The notes beneath the pieces were generated by a model that searched no databases, was not told the origin of the DNA, and worked only from the letters and a program-made list of their open reading frames with translations. Both the position numbers and the translations under genes were made by a program. From positions 1 to 64,000 of the forward strand of contig NZ_DF970160.1 of NCBI RefSeq assembly GCF_000953855.2: a stretch of DNA of 64,000 nt, in the 5' to 3' direction. This document shows, in pieces, positions 9,006 to 19,881 of this stretch. This DNA is from Mizugakiibacter sediminis. GTDB taxonomy: Bacteria; Pseudomonadota; Gammaproteobacteria; Xanthomonadales; Rhodanobacteraceae. Within the stretch, counting starts at the first letter, position 1. Each line of letters starts with the position of its first letter.

Positions 9006-9495
9006 TTGACGCCTGGGCCCGGGTCTGCCCGGGTACTGGCTGGACCGGCGCGCGCGCCGCGCGCGAACGCCGGCCCAGCCAGATGTGCAGCGGCAGTATC
9101 GCCACTGCGCCCAGTCCGAGCAGCAGGTGCACCCATTTGGCGAACTCGCGCAGGTCCTCGCCGGCGTAGTACAGCGCGTAGCCGGTGAGGATCAGCACCG
9201 CGGCGAACGCGGCTACGCTGCCGCCGCTCCAGCGGTTGCGCCCGGTGTTCCAGCCGAAGCGCACATGCTGCGGCAGCATCGAGCCCAGGAGCAGCAAGGC
9301 GATGAAGCCGCCGGCGCCGTGCAACTGGGTCAGTGAGTGCAGGGCATCGGTCGGTTCGCGGCCAGGCAGATCCCACCACACGGCCCAGACGACGCCGGTG
9401 ACCGCGACCAGCCCGAGGCCACCGTAGAGCAGCCACAGGTGCAGGCGGATGCCGGTGCCGCGCTGCGAGGGGCGGGGGCGACGGCCGCGCGTCAT
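8956..9495 (-). CDS. four-helix b-type cytochrome-like membrane protein of a flavinylation operon
   Basis: This is a 179-residue integral membrane protein with four hydrophobic helices (roughly 18-38, 57-76, 92-111 and 122-140). Histidines 59 and 77 lie in helix 2, and 123 and 137 in helix 4. That paired pattern is typical of bis-heme b cytochromes of the PepSY/DUF4405/ferric-reductase kind. It probably moves electrons across the inner membrane to the FMN-binding protein of the same operon. Its ATG overlaps the apbE stop (ATGA). The hydrophilic C-terminal tail runs 50 bases into the 3' end of the convergent cyclophilin gene. The exact family assignment is an inference. Confidence 0.75.
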
Positions 9496-10286
9496 AGCGT
9501 CACCGCCTGCGCGCGCAGTCGCGCGAGCAGCGACGCGCTGGCCTCGGCGCCGCGCAGCCAGACGATCTTGGTCAGCGCATCCGCACGCAGGCAGCTCGGA
9601 GCGAGCACGCTGACGCTGCGGTAGCGGCGCGGGCTGCCGCCGGCGGGATCGCGAATCGACCAGTCGCCGCCGCTTTCGCTGAAGTACGGCGCACTGGTGG
9701 CGATTGCGCCGTCGGCCAGCGCGCCCAGCGGCAGCAGGCGCTGCGGTTGCTGCGGATCGCGCACGGCGACCATCTGCGGTTCGTCGCCGAGCACGCGCAG
9801 GTCGCCGCCGGCGTTGACCACCGCCGCGGTCGCGCCGTGGCGGCGCAGCGCGTCGACCGCGCGGTCGACGGCGAAACCCTTGGCGATGCCGCCGAGATCC
9901 AGCCACAGCGGGCGGCGGTAGTGCACGCGGAAGCCGGGCAGCAGTTCCACGGCTTCCATACCCGTCGCCGGCGGCGCTTCGTCGGCGGGAGCGGGCAGGG
10001 CGCCCGCGGCTACCGACGCGCCGGCCACGCTGCAATCGAACGCGCCGTCGCTGAGTCGATGCAGGCGACGGGCGGCGCGCAGCACGCGGTAGGTCCACGG
10101 ATGCACGCGCAGCGCGCGCCGTGCCGCCTCGCGATTGAGACGCGACAGCTCGCTCGTCGGATCGTGGAAACTCATCAGCGCGTGTACGCGCTCGACCGCG
10201 GCGAACGCCGCCGTCACCGCGCACGCGTCGCCGCGTGCGCGGATCTCGACCAGCGTGCCCAGCAGCGGTCGCGCGCGTGCGATCAC
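9492..10286 (-). CDS. apbE: FAD:protein FMN transferase (ApbE)
   Basis: ApbE attaches FMN from FAD covalently to a Ser or Thr of a target protein in the periplasm. This copy has about 264 residues. The family motif DLGGIAKGFAVDRA and the later NAGGDLRVLG and AIATSAPYF segments are present. I chose the GTG at 10286: it overlaps the stop of the upstream FMN-binding gene (GTGA) and is followed at once by the conserved RARPLLGTLVEI. An upstream ATG at 10352 would overlap that gene by 70 bases. No signal peptide or lipobox is evident with this start, so export is unexplained. The substrate is almost certainly the FMN-binding protein encoded just upstream. Confidence 0.92.
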   Translation of the reverse strand: MIARARPLLGTLVEIRARGDACAVTAAFAAVERVHALMSFHDPTSELSRLNREAARRALRVHPWTYRVLRAARRLHRLSDGAFDCSVAGASVAAGALPAPADEAPPATGMEAVELLPGFRVHYRRPLWLDLGGIAKGFAVDRAVDALRRHGATAAVVNAGGDLRVLGDEPQMVAVRDPQQPQRLLPLGALADGAIATSAPYFSESGGDWSIRDPAGGSPRRYRSVSVLAPSCLRADALTKIVWLRGAEASASLLARLRAQAVTL

Positions 10287-10807
10287 GACTTCGCCAGGAC
10301 CAGGTCGTACAGCGCGAGGACGCGCTTCACGCCCTGGGTGAGGTGCTTGCACGACAGCGTTGCCCCGCTGATGTTGCGGATGTCGCGGCCCAGCTCGAGC
10401 CGGTCCGCCGGCGTCTTGCCGACGAATTGCGCGCGCCAGTCCGCGTTGCGTACTTGCCCGCCGTAGGTTTCGCTGTAGGTCAGGACCTCGATGCCCTTGA
10501 CCGCGCCGCGTGTGTCGAGCGCGACGGCGTACTTGATCTTCTCGTGCTTGCCGACCACTTCATCGACCACGAAGAACCCCCGGGGGGCGCGCCACACGCG
10601 GCCGGCGTCGAACTCCAGGTGCACGCCGGATGCCGCGAACATCGCCTTGCGCGTGGCCTCGTCCAGCGTCAGCGGCATCGGCTGCAGCGTCTCTCCCGGG
10701 AAGAATTCCGCTTGCGCCTGCGCGACCGACATGTAGTCGGCGGCATACGCCGGCGCCAGCACCAACAGCGCCGGCGCCGGCGCGAGGCTGCGCCATCGCA
10801 TCTTCAT
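10283..10807 (-). CDS. periplasmic FMN-binding domain protein, ApbE substrate
   Basis: This 174-residue protein has a signal peptide (residues 1-22, ending in APAYAA) and an FMN-binding domain. The flavinylation motif SGAT is at 147-150 (RNISGATLSC), and Thr150 is the expected attachment residue. The domain shares the GI.VLTY.ETYGGQV segment of RnfG/NqrC-like FMN-binding proteins. The ATG at 10807 has a GGGGAAC Shine-Dalgarno-like stretch in front. The gene sits between the outer-membrane protein gene and apbE in a four-gene operon. It probably serves as an extracytoplasmic one- or two-electron carrier; the final acceptor is unknown. Confidence 0.9.
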   Translation of the reverse strand: MKMRWRSLAPAPALLVLAPAYAADYMSVAQAQAEFFPGETLQPMPLTLDEATRKAMFAASGVHLEFDAGRVWRAPRGFFVVDEVVGKHEKIKYAVALDTRGAVKGIEVLTYSETYGGQVRNADWRAQFVGKTPADRLELGRDIRNISGATLSCKHLTQGVKRVLALYDLVLAKS

Positions 10808-10826
10808 CGTTTCGTTCCCCCGCGGC

Positions 10827-11717
10827 TCACCGGAACGGAATGCCGATCTTGAGCATGAATTCGTTGCGGGCGTGCTCGTCGCCGTAGATGCGGTCGCCGC
10901 GCACCACCTCCCGCTGTTCCTCGGTGAAGGCCTGTACGACCGGCAACTGGTGGCGCCACGCGGCCGTGAGCCACCAGTGCTGGGCCGCGTAGTGCAGATT
11001 GGGGCCGAGGAACCAGGCGGAGTGCTCCTTGTTGCCGAGGCCGTAGCCTTCGAACTCGCGGTGGTTGCGCGCTTCCAGGCCCAGCGACCAGTGGTCGGCG
11101 AAGCGATAGCTGGCACCGAAGGCCAGGTCGACCATGGTGGCCTTCTCCAGCGCCATCTTCATTTCTTCGCGTTCGATCTCGGCCATCAGGTTGCCGGCGA
11201 GGATCAGGCGGTCGTCGAGGAAGTTCTTCTGCGCGATCAGGCGCAACTCCAGTTCGCGCTCGTCCGGGCCGATCGCCGGCTCGGCGTAGACGGCGAGGCC
11301 GAAGCGGTCGGTCAACGGATTGAGGATCTGGTAGATCGCCTCCACGGACACGCTGTCGAAGTGCGTGCGGCGGAAGCGGCCGAACGGATCGTCGCCGGGG
11401 CCGAGATCGGTGCCCGGGCCGCCGGTGGTGCCGTCAGGCTCGTTGCGGAGGGCGTTGACGTAGCTCCAGTTGAGGTACGCGGACATCTGGAACTTGCTGG
11501 TGATGCCGAACTCGAGTTCCTCGCGGTTCTGCAGGTGGCGGTAGTCGCCGCCGGCTTGCCCCTGCTGCAGGAACGACCAGTGTTCGTACTCGAACGTGCC
11601 GGCCGGATGGATGTCGGCGGTGTAGATCCAGCCGAACGGCGATTCGCCGGCGCGGGCGGCGACGAGTGGCACGAGCAGGGCAAGCGCCAGCAGCGCGGCG
11701 CGGGTGCGTCGAAGCAT
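10827..11717 (-). CDS. predicted outer-membrane beta-barrel protein (DUF6662-like)
   Basis: The protein has 296 residues with a clear signal peptide (MLRRTRAALLALALLVPLVAARA) and many alternating amphipathic strands rich in aromatic residues (FEYEHWSFLQQ, LNWSYV, WFLGPNLHYAAQHWWLT). It ends in a hydrophobic strand, FMLKIGIPFR. I recall such proteins (DUF6662 type) next to FMN-binding proteins, but the family label comes from memory and is not certain. It is the first gene of the flavinylation operon, 20 bases before the FMN-binding gene. It could be a porin or a barrel for a metal or electron acceptor. The AT-rich Fur-like site lies about 72 bases upstream. Confidence 0.7.
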   Translation of the reverse strand: MLRRTRAALLALALLVPLVAARAGESPFGWIYTADIHPAGTFEYEHWSFLQQGQAGGDYRHLQNREELEFGITSKFQMSAYLNWSYVNALRNEPDGTTGGPGTDLGPGDDPFGRFRRTHFDSVSVEAIYQILNPLTDRFGLAVYAEPAIGPDERELELRLIAQKNFLDDRLILAGNLMAEIEREEMKMALEKATMVDLAFGASYRFADHWSLGLEARNHREFEGYGLGNKEHSAWFLGPNLHYAAQHWWLTAAWRHQLPVVQAFTEEQREVVRGDRIYGDEHARNEFMLKIGIPFR

Positions 11718-11822: not shown

Positions 11823-11941
11823 AGAGGCGGGCGCCGGCTCTCGCCGGTCACGCCCGCGCCCGCCGCCCGCGCTTGTGCTGGACGGCGCCTGCACGCATAG
11901 TCCGCGCGCGACACGCCGGAGACGCAGAGCAGCGGGAACAC

Positions 11942-12952
11942 ATGCGGGTACGCCTGGAAGACGTGGCACGCGCGGCCGGGGTTTCGCCGAAGACCGTCTC
12001 CCGCGTGCTCAACGACGAAGCCAACGTGACGGCGCGCACGCGCGAGAAGGTGCGCGCGGCGATCGAGGCGATGGGCTACCGGCCGCACCCGTCGGCGCGC
12101 AGCCTGGCCAGCAACCGCTCGTTCCTGGTCGCGACCCTGTACGACAACCCATCGTCCAACTACCTCACCGAGATCCTCGGCGGCGTGCTCGAAGCCTGCG
12201 ACCAGCACCGCTACAGCATGCTGGTGCGGCCGCTGGACGTGAACGCCGCCGACTTCGTCGCGCGCGTGGATGCGTTCATCTCGCATCACCGACCCGAGGG
12301 CCTGGTGCTGACGCCGCCGATCACCGACCACGCCGCGCTGCTCGCGCGCCTGCACGAGCGCGGCGTGCGCTACGCCAGCGTCTCGCCGATCGAGCGCGCC
12401 GGCCGGATCGGCGCCTTCATGGACGAGCCGCTGGCCGCGCGCCAGATGGTGGAGCACCTGCTGGCCCTGGGGCACCGGCGCATCGCCCACGTGGTCGGCC
12501 ATCCCGCGCACGGCGCCAGCCGCTGGCGACTGGACGGCTACCGCGCGGCGTTGCATGCCGCCGGAATGTCCTGTGATCCCGCGCTGGTGGTGCAGGGCGA
12601 TTTCTCGTTCGGCTCCGGCGTGACGGCGGCGCGGGCGCTGTTTTCGCTGCCGCGCGACCGCGGGCCGACGGCGGTGTTCGCCGCCAACGACGACATGGCG
12701 GCCGGCGTGATCTGGACCGCGGGCGAACATGGGCTGGCCGTGCCGCGCGACGTGTCGGTGTGCGGTTTCGACGACACGCCGATCGCGCACCAGATCTGGC
12801 CGGCCCTGACCACCGTTCACCAGCCCAGCCACGACATGGGGCGGATCGCCGCGCTGCAGCTGCTGGAAGTGCTGCGCGGGCGCGGCGAGGGCGCGATGGT
12901 GCAGGTGCCGTTCGCCCTGCGCGTGCGCGAATCGACCGCGCCCGCGGCCTGA
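11942..12952 (+). CDS. LacI-family transcriptional regulator of the adjacent sugar locus
   Basis: This 336-residue regulator has a LacI helix-turn-helix (VRLEDVARAAGVSPKTVSRVLN) and the hinge-binding segment (GYRPHPSARSLASNRS). A periplasmic-binding-protein-like effector domain follows, with LGHRRIAHVVGHP, AVFAANDDMAAG and VCGFDDTPIA. I chose the ATG at 11942 because it places the HTH right at the N-terminus; earlier in-frame codons add unconserved residues. It lies directly upstream of the TonB receptor and two glycosidases. It is therefore the likely repressor of that locus, probably through the palindrome at 13008. The inducer is not known. Confidence 0.93.
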   Translation: MRVRLEDVARAAGVSPKTVSRVLNDEANVTARTREKVRAAIEAMGYRPHPSARSLASNRSFLVATLYDNPSSNYLTEILGGVLEACDQHRYSMLVRPLDVNAADFVARVDAFISHHRPEGLVLTPPITDHAALLARLHERGVRYASVSPIERAGRIGAFMDEPLAARQMVEHLLALGHRRIAHVVGHPAHGASRWRLDGYRAALHAAGMSCDPALVVQGDFSFGSGVTAARALFSLPRDRGPTAVFAANDDMAAGVIWTAGEHGLAVPRDVSVCGFDDTPIAHQIWPALTTVHQPSHDMGRIAALQLLEVLRGRGEGAMVQVPFALRVRESTAPAA

Positions 12953-13007: not shown

Positions 13008-13021
13008 TGACAGCGCTGTCA
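13008..13021. promoter_or_regulatory. LacI-type operator candidate
   Basis: TGACAGCGCTGTCA is a perfect 14-bp palindrome with a central CG, the hallmark of LacI-family operators. It lies 155 bases before the TonB receptor start and 56 bases after the lacI stop. The position fits repression of the receptor-glycosidase genes and possibly feedback on the regulator. Confidence 0.7.
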
Positions 13022-13175: not shown

Positions 13176-15710
13176 ATGACTCGCACGCACCTGGCGCGAC
13201 TGGCGCTTTCCGTGGCGATCGCCGCGGCTCTAGGCCCCGGCCTCGCGCTCGCCCAGAACGACACGCAGAACCCGAACGACACCGCGCCGCCGGACAAGGC
13301 CAAGGCCGCGGAGGCGCGCGCCACCGGCGCGCAGAACCTCGAAGCGGTGGTCGTCACCGGCAACGTCGCCGCGGGCGGCCTGAAGAAGATCGACGCCAGC
13401 TACGCCATCACCACCGCGACGTCCGAGGAGATCAAGCGGGCCAACCCGAAGAGCACGGCGGACCTGCTGAAGATCGCCCCGGGCCTGTGGCCGGAATCCA
13501 CCGGCGGCCAGACCGGCGCCAACATCGAGATCGCCGGCTTCCCCGGCGGCGGCGACGCGCCGTTCAACACCGTGCAGCTGATGGGTTCGCCGTTGTACGG
13601 CATGCCGACGCTGTCGTTCTTCGAACAGACCAGCATCTTCCGCCTCGACGACACCATCGACCGCGTCGAGATCATCCAGGGCGGTCCGTCCGTGGTGTTC
13701 GCCGACGGCCAGATCGGCGCCAGCGAGAACTTCATCCTGAAGCAGGGCACCGCGGTGCCGTCCGGCAGCCTCGGCGTCACCTACGGCGACGAGAACCTGC
13801 GCCGCGTCGACGGTTTCGTCGGCTTCCCGATCGCCAAGGACTGGTACGGCAGCTTCGGCGGCTTCTACCGCGATTCCGACGGCGTGCGCGACCCGCAGTT
13901 CCCCGCCGACAAGGGCGGCCAGCTCACCGGCACGCTGACGCACGACACCGAGAACGGCACGATGACGTTCTACGCGCGCTGGCTGGACGACAAGAACCAG
14001 TTCATCACGCCGATCCCGCTGATCCAGCACGGCACCGACAAGTTCAGCGCCTATCCGGGCTTCGATCCGCTGACCAGCACGTACTACAGCAAGGACATCC
14101 AGCACGTGTTCCTCGCCGGCTATCCGGGCGGCGGCACCAACGCCGACCTGGCCGACGGCCGCGGCGCGCGCATGGGCTTCCTCGGCGCCAATTTCGACTT
14201 CGACTTCGGCGACGGCTGGCACTTCTCCGACAAGGTGCTGTGGGATGCCGGCGACGTCGACACCAACGCGCTGTTCTCCGGCACCAACCCGGCCAGCCTG
14301 GACGACGAGCTGTACAACCTGAGCCCCAGCGTCGGCGGCTTCCAGCTTCCGGCCGGTTCGGCGACCGCCACCTACAAGGACGGCACCGTCGTCGACCCGA
14401 ACCAGAGCGTGATCCATCAGGGCTGGTGGTTCATCCACAAGCACCTGAAGAACCTCAACAACGACATGCGCGTCAGCAAGGAGCTGTTCGAGGGCAACAC
14501 GCTCACCGCCGGCCTGTACCTCGCGCACTACAGCGACGACGACAAGTGGGCGCTGGGCAACCAGATGCTGATGACCAACACGCCCAACGCGAAGCCGATC
14601 CTGGTGAGCTACGTCAACGGCGGCCAGACCTTCCGGCTGACCGACAATCAGGGGTTCCTGGATTACGGCGGCTACAACATCACCGAGCACGGCGTCGCCA
14701 ACAACAAGGCGTTCTACCTGTCCGACCTGTGGCGCGTCGGCCGCTGGCTGTTCGACTTCTCCGCGCGCATCGAGAACCAGCAGGCGCACAACACCGTCTG
14801 CAACCTGAGCAACGTCAACCTGGACGGCGACCCGAACACGCTCTACGACAACGCGGTGCCGGTGTGCAACGGCACGTTCTCGCGCACCGACTACGACAAG
14901 ACCCACCCCTCGTGGACCGTCGGCGCCAACTATCGTCTGGCCGACAACATGAGCGTGTACCTGCGCGCCAACAAGGGCGCCCACTTCGGCGACTTCGACA
15001 ACGCCCTGCGCGGCAACGCCACCGGCAACACGCCGCCGCTGCAGAAGATCCAGAACTTCGAGGGCGGCTTCAAATACCAGTCGCCGCGCGTCTACGCCGA
15101 CATCAGCATCTACCACCGGCAGTTCAGCGGCCTGCCGTACCAGCCGACGGACGGCGCGGGCGTGCCGGTGGGAAGCCCGCTGCTGTACGGCTCCGACTCG
15201 AAGGGCATCAACCTGACCGGCGCGGTCACGCCGATCGAGAACCTGCGGCTGCAACTGGTCGCCAACTACCTGGACGGCCACTACTCGCACAACCAGTCGT
15301 GCCTGCCCTTCACCAATCTGGTGACCGGACAAAGCGGCTGCGCCTTCATCGACGGCAAGCAACTGCAGCGCCAGCCGAAGCTGCGCTACATGTTCACGCC
15401 CAGCTACACGCTGCCCACTTCGTGGGGCGACCTGACCGCGTTCGTCACCTACACCCACGTCGGCTCGCACACCCAGGACCAGTCGGGTCTGCAGCAGCTG
15501 GGCACCTACAGCACCTGGGACTTCGGCGTGATCGCCCACGTGCAGCAGCACTGGGAACTGCGCCTGCAGGGCACCAACGTGACCAACGAACTGGGCCTGA
15601 CCGAGAGCAACTCGCGCATCTTCGGCACCGCCAGCGACACCGGCGGCGTGATCCTGGCCCGCCCGCTCGAGGGCCGCGAGGTCAACCTGCAGGTCCGCTA
15701 CCTGTTCTGA
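13176..15710 (+). CDS. TonB-dependent outer-membrane receptor, sugar locus
   Basis: This 844-residue receptor has a signal peptide (MTRTHLARLALSVAIAAALGPGLALA) and a TonB box (EAVVVTG, about residues 56-62). A plug domain follows (ATSEEIKRANPKSTADLLKIAPG ... DRVEIIQGGPSVVFADG), then a beta barrel ending in the usual C-terminal Phe (VRYLF). Receptors of this kind take up sugars or metal chelates with TonB/ExbB energy. Its position between a LacI regulator and two secreted glycosidases points to a saccharide, as in Xanthomonas carbohydrate-utilisation loci. The N-terminus has no FecR-type signalling domain, which agrees with control by LacI rather than an anti-sigma factor. Confidence 0.92.
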   Translation: MTRTHLARLALSVAIAAALGPGLALAQNDTQNPNDTAPPDKAKAAEARATGAQNLEAVVVTGNVAAGGLKKIDASYAITTATSEEIKRANPKSTADLLKIAPGLWPESTGGQTGANIEIAGFPGGGDAPFNTVQLMGSPLYGMPTLSFFEQTSIFRLDDTIDRVEIIQGGPSVVFADGQIGASENFILKQGTAVPSGSLGVTYGDENLRRVDGFVGFPIAKDWYGSFGGFYRDSDGVRDPQFPADKGGQLTGTLTHDTENGTMTFYARWLDDKNQFITPIPLIQHGTDKFSAYPGFDPLTSTYYSKDIQHVFLAGYPGGGTNADLADGRGARMGFLGANFDFDFGDGWHFSDKVLWDAGDVDTNALFSGTNPASLDDELYNLSPSVGGFQLPAGSATATYKDGTVVDPNQSVIHQGWWFIHKHLKNLNNDMRVSKELFEGNTLTAGLYLAHYSDDDKWALGNQMLMTNTPNAKPILVSYVNGGQTFRLTDNQGFLDYGGYNITEHGVANNKAFYLSDLWRVGRWLFDFSARIENQQAHNTVCNLSNVNLDGDPNTLYDNAVPVCNGTFSRTDYDKTHPSWTVGANYRLADNMSVYLRANKGAHFGDFDNALRGNATGNTPPLQKIQNFEGGFKYQSPRVYADISIYHRQFSGLPYQPTDGAGVPVGSPLLYGSDSKGINLTGAVTPIENLRLQLVANYLDGHYSHNQSCLPFTNLVTGQSGCAFIDGKQLQRQPKLRYMFTPSYTLPTSWGDLTAFVTYTHVGSHTQDQSGLQQLGTYSTWDFGVIAHVQQHWELRLQGTNVTNELGLTESNSRIFGTASDTGGVILARPLEGREVNLQVRYLF

Positions 15711-15835: not shown

Positions 15836-18079
15836 ATGAAATCCGTCCGCATCCCGCTCGCAGCCGTGCTCCTCGCCGCCGCCGTCGCCACGCCGGCGCT
15901 CGCGGCGACCGATCCGAGCTTCCTGTTCACCGCCACGGCCGGGGATTTCGACCGCTACTTCCCCAGCTACCTGGCCAACGGCTACTTCACCACGATGACG
16001 TCCCCGCGCGGCACCGAGGGCAACCGTGCCTACATGGTCGCGTTCATGGACTACACGCAGGACGACATCGCGCGGCCGGCGGCGATTCCCGGCTGGAGCG
16101 AGATCGACTACAACCCGGGCGACGGCTGGCTGAACCGCACGCGCCTCGACGCGCGCTTCTTCGGCGACTACGCGCAGACGCTGGATGCCTACGACGGCAC
16201 GCTGACCACGCGCTACCGCTACCGTTATGCCGACAGGGTCACCGACGTGCAGGTGGTCACCTTCGTCAGCCAGGCCGCGCCGCACCTCGCGGCGACGCGG
16301 CTCACGATCACGCCGCAGTTCGACGGCACCGTGCAGTTGAGCTTCCCGATCCGGCTGTGGTCGGAATACCAGCCGCGCTTTCCGATCGGCAAGCTGGACG
16401 GCGAGGCGATGATCGACGCGGTGATCGCCAGCGGCCAGAACCTCGACAACAAACCGGCGCCGACGTCGGACCGCGCCGCCGTCTGGTACCCCGGCTACAC
16501 GCGCGTCCTCGCCGCCGACGGCGACCCCCGCGCGCTGACGCTGTGGCTGCGCGGCCGCGCCGAGCAAGGCCTGGGCATGGCCGAGGCGGCCGCGATCGGC
16601 CTGCCGCCCGGCTTGCAGGTCGAGGACGTGCGTCTCGAGAACGGCGCGCACAGGCTGTCGCTGGAGCTCACCGCGCGCGTGCTGAAGGGGCGCAGCTACG
16701 CCTTCACCAAGTACGTCGCCGTGTCGCGGGAAGGGTGGGGCGGCGGCGACCGCGAAGACCTCGCCCTCGCCGTCGCCGCGCGCCGCACGGGCTTCGAGCG
16801 CCTGCTCGCCGAGCACCGCGACGCCTGGCACGCGCTGTGGCGCTCGGACATCGTGATCGACGGCGATGCGGCGGCGCAGAAGGCGGTGCATTCCGACCTC
16901 TACTACCTGCTGTCCAACAGCACCGTCGGTACCGCCTGGCCGATGGGCGCCTGCGCGCTGACGCCGAACTACGCCGGCCACGCGTTCTGGGACAGCGACT
17001 CCTGGGTGTTCCCGGCGCTGCTGCTGCTGCATCCCGAGCGCGCCAAGCCGATCGTGATGTTCCGCGCGCGCACCATCGCGCCGGCGGAGAAGCGCGCGGC
17101 GCAGTACGGCGCCAGGGGCACGATGTATCCGTGGGAGGCCGACCCGGAGACCGGCGTCGACGTCACGCCGTACTTCGCCTACGGCATCTACCGCGAGATC
17201 CACGTCAACGCCGACATCGCCATCGCCCAATGGCAGTACTACCTCGCCAGCGGCGACGACGCCTGGCTGCGCCGGTACGGCTGGCCGGTGATCCGCGGCA
17301 TCGCCGAGTTCTGGGCCAGCCGCGTGACCCACGACGCGGCGCAGGACCGCTACGAGATCCTGCACGTCACCTCGCCGGACGAGGCCTACGCCGACGTGCC
17401 GAACGACGCCTTCACCAACGCCGCCGCGCGCAAGGCGCTGAACATCGCCGTCGAGGCGGCGAAGCGCGTCGGCGCGGCGCCGGACCCGCGCTGGGCGGAG
17501 ATCGCCGCGAAGATGTACATCCCGTTCTCCGCGCGCGAGCAGCGCCACCTCGACTTCGACGCCAGCGTGCCGCACGACAAGATCACCTGGATGGGCTCGT
17601 CGCTGGTCTGGCTGATGTACCCCAATCTCGACCTGCCGATGCCGGACGCGGTGCGCGCCAACGACTTCGCCTTCCAGCTCGAGGCGCTGAAGAGCCACGG
17701 CGACGATCCCAACGAGATGATGATGGTGATGCTGGCCGTCGCCGCCGCCGAACTGGGCGATGCCGATGCCGCCGGCCGCTGGATCGAGCGCAATCTGCAA
17801 GGGTTCCTCAAGCCGCCGTTCAACGTGCGCACCGAGACCGTGGCGAACAACGCCGGCTACATCCTCGCCACTTCCGCCGGCTTCCTGCAGAGCATGATCT
17901 ACGGGCTGACCGGCCTGCGCATCGACGAGCGCGGCTTGAGCGAGGCCTACGCGCCGGTGCTGCCGCCGAAGTGGCGCGCGCTGACGCTGAAGAACGTGGT
18001 GTTTCGCGGCCAGCGTTACGACATCCGTGTCGAACGCGACGCCGCCGGCAAGGTACGACTGGTGCGGCGGAAGCCGTGA
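15836..18079 (+). CDS. secreted glycoside hydrolase family 65 protein (acid-trehalase-like)
   Basis: The protein has 747 residues with a signal peptide (1-24, ending in PALAAT). The (alpha/alpha)6-barrel region carries the GH65 signature GHAFWDSDSW (381-390), followed by RARTIAPAEKRAAQYGARGTMYPWE. A later SPDEAYADVPNDAFTN segment contains Glu516 at the position of the catalytic acid in the family. GH65 includes trehalose, maltose and kojibiose phosphorylases and hydrolases such as acid trehalase. A periplasmic location without free phosphate supply favours hydrolysis. It follows the TonB receptor by 125 bases and is probably co-expressed. The substrate, trehalose or another alpha-glucoside, is not decided by sequence alone. 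Confidence 0.82.
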   Translation: MKSVRIPLAAVLLAAAVATPALAATDPSFLFTATAGDFDRYFPSYLANGYFTTMTSPRGTEGNRAYMVAFMDYTQDDIARPAAIPGWSEIDYNPGDGWLNRTRLDARFFGDYAQTLDAYDGTLTTRYRYRYADRVTDVQVVTFVSQAAPHLAATRLTITPQFDGTVQLSFPIRLWSEYQPRFPIGKLDGEAMIDAVIASGQNLDNKPAPTSDRAAVWYPGYTRVLAADGDPRALTLWLRGRAEQGLGMAEAAAIGLPPGLQVEDVRLENGAHRLSLELTARVLKGRSYAFTKYVAVSREGWGGGDREDLALAVAARRTGFERLLAEHRDAWHALWRSDIVIDGDAAAQKAVHSDLYYLLSNSTVGTAWPMGACALTPNYAGHAFWDSDSWVFPALLLLHPERAKPIVMFRARTIAPAEKRAAQYGARGTMYPWEADPETGVDVTPYFAYGIYREIHVNADIAIAQWQYYLASGDDAWLRRYGWPVIRGIAEFWASRVTHDAAQDRYEILHVTSPDEAYADVPNDAFTNAAARKALNIAVEAAKRVGAAPDPRWAEIAAKMYIPFSAREQRHLDFDASVPHDKITWMGSSLVWLMYPNLDLPMPDAVRANDFAFQLEALKSHGDDPNEMMMVMLAVAAAELGDADAAGRWIERNLQGFLKPPFNVRTETVANNAGYILATSAGFLQSMIYGLTGLRIDERGLSEAYAPVLPPKWRALTLKNVVFRGQRYDIRVERDAAGKVRLVRRKP

Positions 18080-18222
18080 GGCATCGCGTGCCGGCGCCTG
18101 CCGCGCGCGGGGATGCGCAGGTTCCGGCGGCAACCGGGACGGGCAGGGCAGCCGCACGATGCTGCGTTTGCGCGAAGACCGCGGCGGCCGCGCGCCGTCG
18201 CCCCACGATGAGGCATGCATCG

Positions 18223-19881
18223 ATGAAGAACGTCAGGCGGATCGCTTTCTTTTTCCTCTCCCTCGCCATGGCGGCTACCGCCGCGGCGGTGGCGCCGGAC
18301 GCGGCGAAGACGCGCGCCTACATCGATCGCGCCTGGGACACCCTGACGCGCTCGATCGACGACTGCTCGGCGCTGGTCGATCCGAAGATCGCCGCGCATC
18401 CGGTGCTGTACCTGCCGCACGGCCTGGCCGAGCCGGCGAACGTCGCCCGCGCCGGCAAGCGCTGCAAGGTCGAGGTGCGCACGCTGCCGCGCCGCATCGA
18501 GCGCCTGGGCGAACTCGATCCGCTGACGCTGCCCGCGCAGGGCCTGCTGTACCTGCCGCATCCGTACGTGGTGCCGGGCGGCGCGTTCAACGAGATGTAC
18601 GGCTGGGACAGCTACTTCATCGTGCTGGGCCTGGCCGCCGACCGCCGCGGCGCGCTGGCGCGCGACATGGTCGACAACGCGCTGTTCGAGGTCGAGCACT
18701 ACGGCAGCGTGCTGAACGCCAACCGCACCTATTACCTGACGCGCTCGCAGCCGCCGTTCCTCACCGCGATGATGGCGGAAGCGATGCGCGCGCCCGGCGC
18801 GTTCCGCGATGCGGCCGAGCGGCGCGCCTGGCTGGCGCGCGCCTATCCGCTCGCTGTGCGCAACTACGCGATCTGGACGCGGCCCGAGCACCAGGCCGGC
18901 GACACCGGGCTGGCGCGCTACTTCGACCTTGGCAGCGGCCCGGTGCCGGAGATGCTCGGCGCCGAGTACTACCGCGGCGTGATCGCCTGGCTACTGGCGC
19001 ATCCGTCGGAGGATCCGGGCTATCTGGTCGATGGCTCGGAGCATCCGGACGCCGCCGAGGCCGCGCGCCTGAAGACCGCAAGTTGTGACGTCGCCGTGTC
19101 GGAAGTTTGCGCCGGCGCCTGGGCGGACGGTCACCGGCTGAGCGCCGACTACTACCGCGGCGACCGCGCGATGCGCGAATCCGGCTTCGACACCAACTTC
19201 CACTTCGGCCCGTACGGCGGCTCCACCCACCACTACGCCGGCGTCGGCCTGAACAGCCTGCTGTACCGCTACGAGCGCGACCTGCACGACTTTGCCGAAC
19301 GGCTCGGCATGAAGGAGGATGCCGCGCGCTGGGCCGCGGCCGCGGCGAAGCGCAAGGCGGCGATGGACAAGTATCTGTGGCGCGCCGACCTCGGCATGTA
19401 CCGCGATTACGACTTCGTCGCGCGCAAGTCCTCCGGGCAGCCGTACATCACCACGTTCTATCCGCTGTGGGCGGGCGCGGCGTCGACGGAGCAGGCCGCG
19501 GCGGTCGAGAAACACCTGCCCGTCTTCGAACGCATGGGCGGGCTGACCATGGACGACCGCCGCAGCGGCGCGCAGTGGGACGCGCCGTTCGGCTGGGCGC
19601 CGACCAACTGGCTGGCGATCGCCGGCCTCGACGCCTACGGCTTCCGCGACGACGCGCAGCGGCTGGCGCGCAAGTTCCTGGGCACGGTCGACCGCAGCCT
19701 GGCCGCCGACGGCACCATCCGCGAGAAATACAACATGGAACTCGGCAACGCCGAGGTGGAGATCACTGCCGGCTACACGCAGAACGTGATCGGCTTCGGC
19801 TGGACCAACGGCGTGTACCTGAAGCTGCAGCAGTTGCTGGACGCCGCGCGTCGCGCGCCGCAGCGCGCCGCCGGCGGTTGA
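18223..19881 (+). CDS. secreted glycoside hydrolase family 37 protein, atypical trehalase
   Basis: This 552-residue secreted protein has a signal peptide of about 24 residues and belongs to GH37 (trehalase). The second trehalase signature QWDAPFGWAP is intact at 451-460, and the acid-bearing ESGFD is at 319-323. The first signature reads PGGAFNEMYGWDSYF (118-132), with Ala121 in place of the usual substrate-binding Arg. The Gly-rich EYPLQDGFGW region before FGWTNGV is replaced by ITAGYTQNVIGFGW. It may cleave a trehalose-like but different sugar. I chose the ATG at 18223 because it gives the shortest n-region; an ATG at 18208 is possible. It lies 143 bases after the GH65 gene. Confidence 0.8.
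   Translation: MKNVRRIAFFFLSLAMAATAAAVAPDAAKTRAYIDRAWDTLTRSIDDCSALVDPKIAAHPVLYLPHGLAEPANVARAGKRCKVEVRTLPRRIERLGELDPLTLPAQGLLYLPHPYVVPGGAFNEMYGWDSYFIVLGLAADRRGALARDMVDNALFEVEHYGSVLNANRTYYLTRSQPPFLTAMMAEAMRAPGAFRDAAERRAWLARAYPLAVRNYAIWTRPEHQAGDTGLARYFDLGSGPVPEMLGAEYYRGVIAWLLAHPSEDPGYLVDGSEHPDAAEAARLKTASCDVAVSEVCAGAWADGHRLSADYYRGDRAMRESGFDTNFHFGPYGGSTHHYAGVGLNSLLYRYERDLHDFAERLGMKEDAARWAAAAAKRKAAMDKYLWRADLGMYRDYDFVARKSSGQPYITTFYPLWAGAASTEQAAAVEKHLPVFERMGGLTMDDRRSGAQWDAPFGWAPTNWLAIAGLDAYGFRDDAQRLARKFLGTVDRSLAADGTIREKYNMELGNAEVEITAGYTQNVIGFGWTNGVYLKLQQLLDAARRAPQRAAGG

Follow-up and report, generated by a model that had tools for sequence, protein, structure and literature searches.

The gene at the downstream end of a row of sugar-related genes in Mizugakiibacter sediminis, located in a stretch of 64,000 nucleotides of contig NZ_DF970160.1 (the window), encodes an intact and probably active member of the trehalase family of sugar-cleaving enzymes, GH37, as judged from its sequence. 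Our preferred reading, to which we assign a probability of about 0.55, is that the protein acts in the periplasm as an inverting exo-alpha-glucosidase whose -1 site is intact and whose +1 site has been rebuilt, and that it works within an alpha-glucoside uptake system. Its substrate would slightly more likely be some other alpha-glucoside than free trehalose, at about 55:45. The features under discussion are collected in Table 1.

Table 1. Features of the window discussed in the text
Feature	Position	Strand	Description
LacI-family regulator	11873..12952	+	frame as listed; true start probably further in
Perfect 14-base palindrome TGACAGCGCTGTCA	13008..13021		ends 154 bases before the receptor start
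TonB-dependent receptor	13176..15710	+	844 aa; profile match
GH65 protein	15836..18079	+	747 aa; profile match
GH37 protein	18223..19881	+	552 aa open reading frame; Pfam and alignment

The GH37 protein is recognised by the Pfam Trehalase model (PF01204, E = 4.2e-98, 329.9 bits against a cut-off of 21), and its hydrophobic N-terminus reads by eye as a Sec signal. Its key residues are A121, V241, R318, the acid D323, H327, the base E501 and Y518. The original prediction had noted an alanine in place of the substrate-binding arginine of the first trehalase signature, and this proved true: PGGAFNEMYGWDSYF is confirmed in the DNA, and its alanine, encoded by GCG at 18583-18585, occupies the position of R152 in TreA of E. 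coli. A sequencing error at this site was considered and rejected, since two base changes separate GCG from an arginine codon and the conserved columns are all kept. The protein conforms at every column with 95% conservation or more among the 97 other sequences of its branch and is, therefore, unlike a decayed copy; with the frame open as well, gene decay was discarded as an explanation. The source genome (3.12 Mb) yielded no GH37 gene besides this one, the two matches being its pieces.

The protein stands nearer to trehalases of fungi than to TreA of E. coli. The yeast neutral trehalase Nth1 heads the phmmer results (6.4e-66, against 2.4e-53 for TreA), and in a Foldseek search with a predicted model (pLDDT 90) four Nth1 entries lead, with values of 1.5e-29 to 4.2e-28 against 2.6e-26 for TreA. 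VIA-align, in contrast, ranks TreA (Z 45 over 398 residues) above Nth1 (Z 39 over 480 residues). The cytosolic Nth1 is regulated by 14-3-3 proteins, and its 14-3-3 complex 5n6n is among the VIA-align results. In the GH37 tree, built from 80 of 106 prepared rows, the 106 together including only about half of the TreA-type rows, Nth1 joins the branch with an SH-aLRT of 99, and a grouping of Nth1 with the TreA-type sequences is rejected by an AU test that was named after the tree had been seen (p 0.0165). Because Nth1 sits on a long branch and its sequence had to be assembled from pieces, we treat the tree as support and not as proof. Sequence comparison and tree together uphold the earlier proposal of a separate GH37 branch. 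Nth1-type features of the protein are this grouping, the arginine of RESGxD beside the catalytic acid and the lack of a Gly-rich lid; the arginine that Nth1 has in signature 1 is replaced by A121. Most of the differences from E. coli TreA are normal for a second GH37 type, shared with a true trehalase, and the oddity left after the comparison with Nth1 is site 121.

Are the means of catalysis retained? Acid D323 (TreA D312) and base E501 (TreA E496), whose catalytic roles in TreA are described in PMC9604388, are present in 86/86 branch and 36/36 TreA-type sequences of our alignment. The 86 include the window's protein and still contain near-duplicate species; the loci L001-L003 (the window itself), L014, L015, L022 and L026 (GH63-like) and identical copies were left out, and L016 and L027 gave no match. 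The TreA-type set comprises E. coli TreA and TreF and 34 sequences from the window's order. The catalytic base had been placed in the loop before FGWTNGV, which is incorrect: in TreA, E496 lies in EKY and is kept here as E501, so that loss of the base is ruled out. TreA positions 153, 159, 160, 196, 205, 207, 310, 446, 447 and 453 are likewise unchanged in all 86 branch sequences, the roles of single residues within the subsites being partly our own assumption. A changed mechanism, one of the two outcomes suggested by the original prediction, is therefore unsupported, as the acid and the base are retained along with every residue tested on the -1 side; the other, a substrate different from trehalose, is possible. 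That the protein is a GH37 paralogue with very weak or no catalytic activity, as the loss of two arginines kept by all 36 TreA-type sequences might suggest, is very unlikely in view of the retained acid and base, the unbroken set of conserved columns and the retention of the gene in a recurring cluster.

The +1 (leaving-group) side is rebuilt, through the changes of R152 to A121, R277 to V241 and A307 to R318 and the exchange of the Gly-rich lid with its E511. The rest of the fold was described as intact, which is correct for ESGFD and QWDAPFGWAP (at 451), both found in the protein, and incorrect for three further positions: TreA R277 is V241 here (V in 80/86 branch sequences), R316 is H327 (R 48, H 37 and V 1 among the 86), and A307 is R318 (R in 86/86). 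TreA W311 is F in 85/86 branch sequences, and E511 corresponds to Y or, with one gap allowed, to G, each invariant in the branch. The reported replacement of the Gly-rich loop stands, with GGGGGEYPLQDGFGW of TreA corresponding to EVEITAGYTQNVIGFGW here; the lid GGGGGEY occurs in 34/36 TreA-type sequences and 0/98 branch sequences, while RESGxD, with R318 five residues before the acid, occurs in 98/98 and 0/36, respectively. Signature 1, PGGRFxExY[GY]WD[ST]Y as printed in PMC10969515, is matched by all 36 TreA-type and 33/98 branch sequences and reads PGGAFNEMYGWDSY here. Signature 2, QWDxPx[GA]W[PAS]P as printed in PMC6384254, is found in the protein, in 78/98 branch sequences and in 34/36 of the TreA-type. 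Motif 3 of PMC10969515, N[AG]xRxYYxxRSQPP, is found at 165, in 77/98 and in 36/36; motifs 2, 4 and 5 from there are unmatched here, and as strings they are too strict to be decisive, matching 0/36, 18/36 and 4/36 TreA-type sequences. The protein stays below the cut-offs of the NCBIfam TreA/TreF models (229.3 against 941, 213.1 against 560 and 206.4 against 512 bits).

Site 121 varies within the branch. Among the 98 branch sequences, arginine occupies it in 34/34 Acidobacteriota and in 3/64 Pseudomonadota, the remaining 61 of which have F (51), M (4), Q (3), A, V or K (1 each); alanine belongs to the present protein alone. A second draw from one acidobacterial family gave 35 loci, 2 of them TreA-type and at least 7 of the branch loci repeating the first set; its 33 branch loci comprise 28 with R, 3 with F, 1 with S and 1 unmatched by the pattern at 121, and residues other than arginine therefore occur among acidobacterial sequences also. 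Columns 242 and 245, in the loop with E243 (TreA E279), differ between the forms with and without the arginine, mostly along the phylum split, and P242 is kept in the window's protein and its Frateuria relatives. Among the alignment columns that differ between the two forms, the catalytic motifs hold no replacement Arg or Lys accompanying the loss of R121, and no arginine evidently stands in for the lost one. The original prediction had allowed for an alternative arginine filling the site; R318 comes close to this, but it answers the loss of R277 and not that of the signature-1 arginine. In a mosquito trehalase, Arg142, Arg256 and Ala287 are among the predicted pocket residues, according to PMC9694508. 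By motif spacing we match these to A121, V241 and R318, which suggests that one pocket arginine is absent and another has moved as in Nth1.

The same residues bear on the main alternative, according to which the protein is a fungal-type (Nth1-like), ordinary alpha,alpha-trehalase, the signature-1 arginine has become dispensable, and the GH65 enzyme serves another sugar of the diet. We regard this as a real possibility, if on balance the less likely one. It accords with the presence of R318 as in Nth1 and with the uniform arginine at 121 in the acidobacterial sequences of the main set. We presume the signature-1 arginine to be one of the essential arginines of insect trehalase. Three such active-site arginines are described for the insect enzyme in PMC9604388, which speaks against dispensability, as do the at least three changes of the R/not-R label on the 98-row tree, with Phe as the commonest replacement. 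With this arginine lost in the proteobacterial sub-branch, the +1 group there is most likely held differently, making another alpha-glucoside the somewhat likelier substrate.

The branch is common in Rhodanobacteraceae and Acidobacteria. The best 80 loci of the relatives search all belong to it, each with more than 590 bits; some relative is encoded by 569/585 candidate stretches, branch membership having been checked for the best loci. By score pattern, 12/37 branch-bearing genomes, among 299 genomes of the order, also keep a TreA-type gene, which argues against an ordinary trehalase. TreA-type genes of the order reach at least 483 bits, one split gene excepted; no such score was found when 150 genomes from one acidobacterial family were searched, the best match there reaching 379.7 bits, and in 6/6 acidobacterial genomes examined the branch gene is the sole full-length match, which favours an ordinary trehalase. 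That reading may also draw on the acid trehalase, with an optimum at pH 2.5, that is reported to have been purified from Acidobacterium capsulatum (PMC9604388). The source genome of the window encodes OtsA, and with no other GH37 gene found there the present protein could be the genome's trehalase. We found no literature title naming this GH37 branch in a search that left subscription papers mostly outside its scope.

Four genes, for the regulator, the receptor, GH65 and GH37, follow each other on the same strand with gaps of 223, 125 and 143 bases. On the opposite strand, at 9492-11717, lies a row of an ApbE-like flavin transferase, an RnfG/NqrC-like FMN-binding protein (both weakly matched) and a DUF6662 protein. 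The GH65 gene is the only one found in the source genome; the best solved relative of its product is PDB 7fe3 (GH65), which we take to be FjGH65A, a kojibiose hydrolase, and its 332.3 bits lie below the cut-off of 800 of the kojibiose hydrolase model NF053734. Upstream sequence of 6 kb or more was present at 58 proteobacterial loci, the window included; of these, GH65 lies within 9 kb in 38, the receptor in 33, either in 42 and neither in 16; near acidobacterial branch genes, a window-like GH65 or receptor was found at 0/20 loci. The search for neighbouring GH65, receptor and LacI genes relied on similarity to the window's proteins, so that neighbours of other kinds go unseen, and the gene calls in the neighbour loci are crude. 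Two GH65 matches occur in 17 loci, with about 70-78% and about 49-62% identity to the window's GH65, and a second copy is absent from the source genome. In Frateuria terrea, GH65 and GH37 are separated by a further GH65 gene (L028:4673-6910), where the window (18080-18222) has none. In the printed rows, both kinds of GH65 retain the Trp-Glu pair employed by FjGH65A at +1, and the region around Thr407 differs from that enzyme. Other clusters contain an MFS transporter (L041), a sugar-porter gene after GH37 (L060) or a glucokinase gene about 3 kb beyond GH37 (L058), and between two GH65 genes at L036:3834-5657 there is a TPR protein carrying a 2OG-Fe(II) oxygenase domain.

A link between the GH65 neighbour and residue 327 or 121 was considered and is not claimed. 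For residue 327 it looks strong by raw counts, but it comes down to four independent pairs, in which H/V327 goes with GH65 in 1.4 on average and never against it. For loss of the arginine at 121, the averages over these pairs are 0.4 in agreement with GH65 and 1.0 in opposition, and both associations are far from significance. Two forms with Arg-121 (L084 and L152) have GH65 beside them, arguing against a tight link between loss of R121 and GH65.

The palindrome listed in Table 1 is likely the operator of the LacI-family regulator. The source genome holds one exact copy and one other site at one mismatch. The exact palindrome recurs in 4/100 branch loci, always beside LacI or receptor genes, and in L050, L058 and L060 it lies between the two; it is absent from the other 96, including L029, L030, L031, L046 and L062, whose pre-receptor stretch is covered. 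Tolerating as many as two mismatches gives 14 matches against 7 for the reversed control, and for this reason only exact, well-placed sites were counted. At L142:8356-12856, in the same order, GH37 and a receptor diverge from the fourth exact copy of this operator-like palindrome and no GH65 was found, so that GH37 does not need GH65 in order to be paired with a receptor.

How might these proteins act together? We infer a periplasmic location, release of glucose, an import path and control by LacI. The TonB receptor would carry an alpha-glucoside into the periplasm, where GH65 and GH37 would release glucose, GH37 performing the last step; the glucose would then enter the cell, and the LacI-family regulator would control the system. 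The bolder proposition is that the proteins form a non-trehalase sub-branch of GH37, periplasmic alpha-glucosidases with a leaving group of their own, in which the signature-1 arginine was lost on a fungal-type site and which share one LacI/TonB regulon with GH65. We hold it tentatively, its chances falling somewhat short of even. Trehalase is the only GH37 enzyme according to PMC10969515, and the proposition, if true, would give a second specificity to a family described as trehalase only. The residues that occur in nature at the place of the signature arginine (R, F, M, Q, K, V, S, A) could serve as a direct test of its role, and the name 'trehalase' for genes of the branch needs an assay first.

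Three known systems place the protein. E. coli TreA (Tre37A, GH37; 2jf4) shares its fold, the catalytic Asp and Glu and the conserved -1 side; it differs at R152, which is A here, as well as in the substitutions of R277, A307 and R316 and in the lid with E511, which is gone here. The outer-membrane import and periplasmic GH65 exo-glucosidase of the Flavobacterium johnsoniae dextran locus (PMC10316084 and PMC8626586) resemble the arrangement in the window; GH37 is not among the genes that we found named for that locus, whereas here LacI and the TonB receptor adjoin GH65/GH37. Nth1 (GH37; 5m4a and 5nis) resembles the protein in having RESGxD (as VRESGHD) and NANRxYYxxRSQPP and in lacking both PRPES and the Gly-rich lid, and differs from it in keeping the arginine of signature 1.
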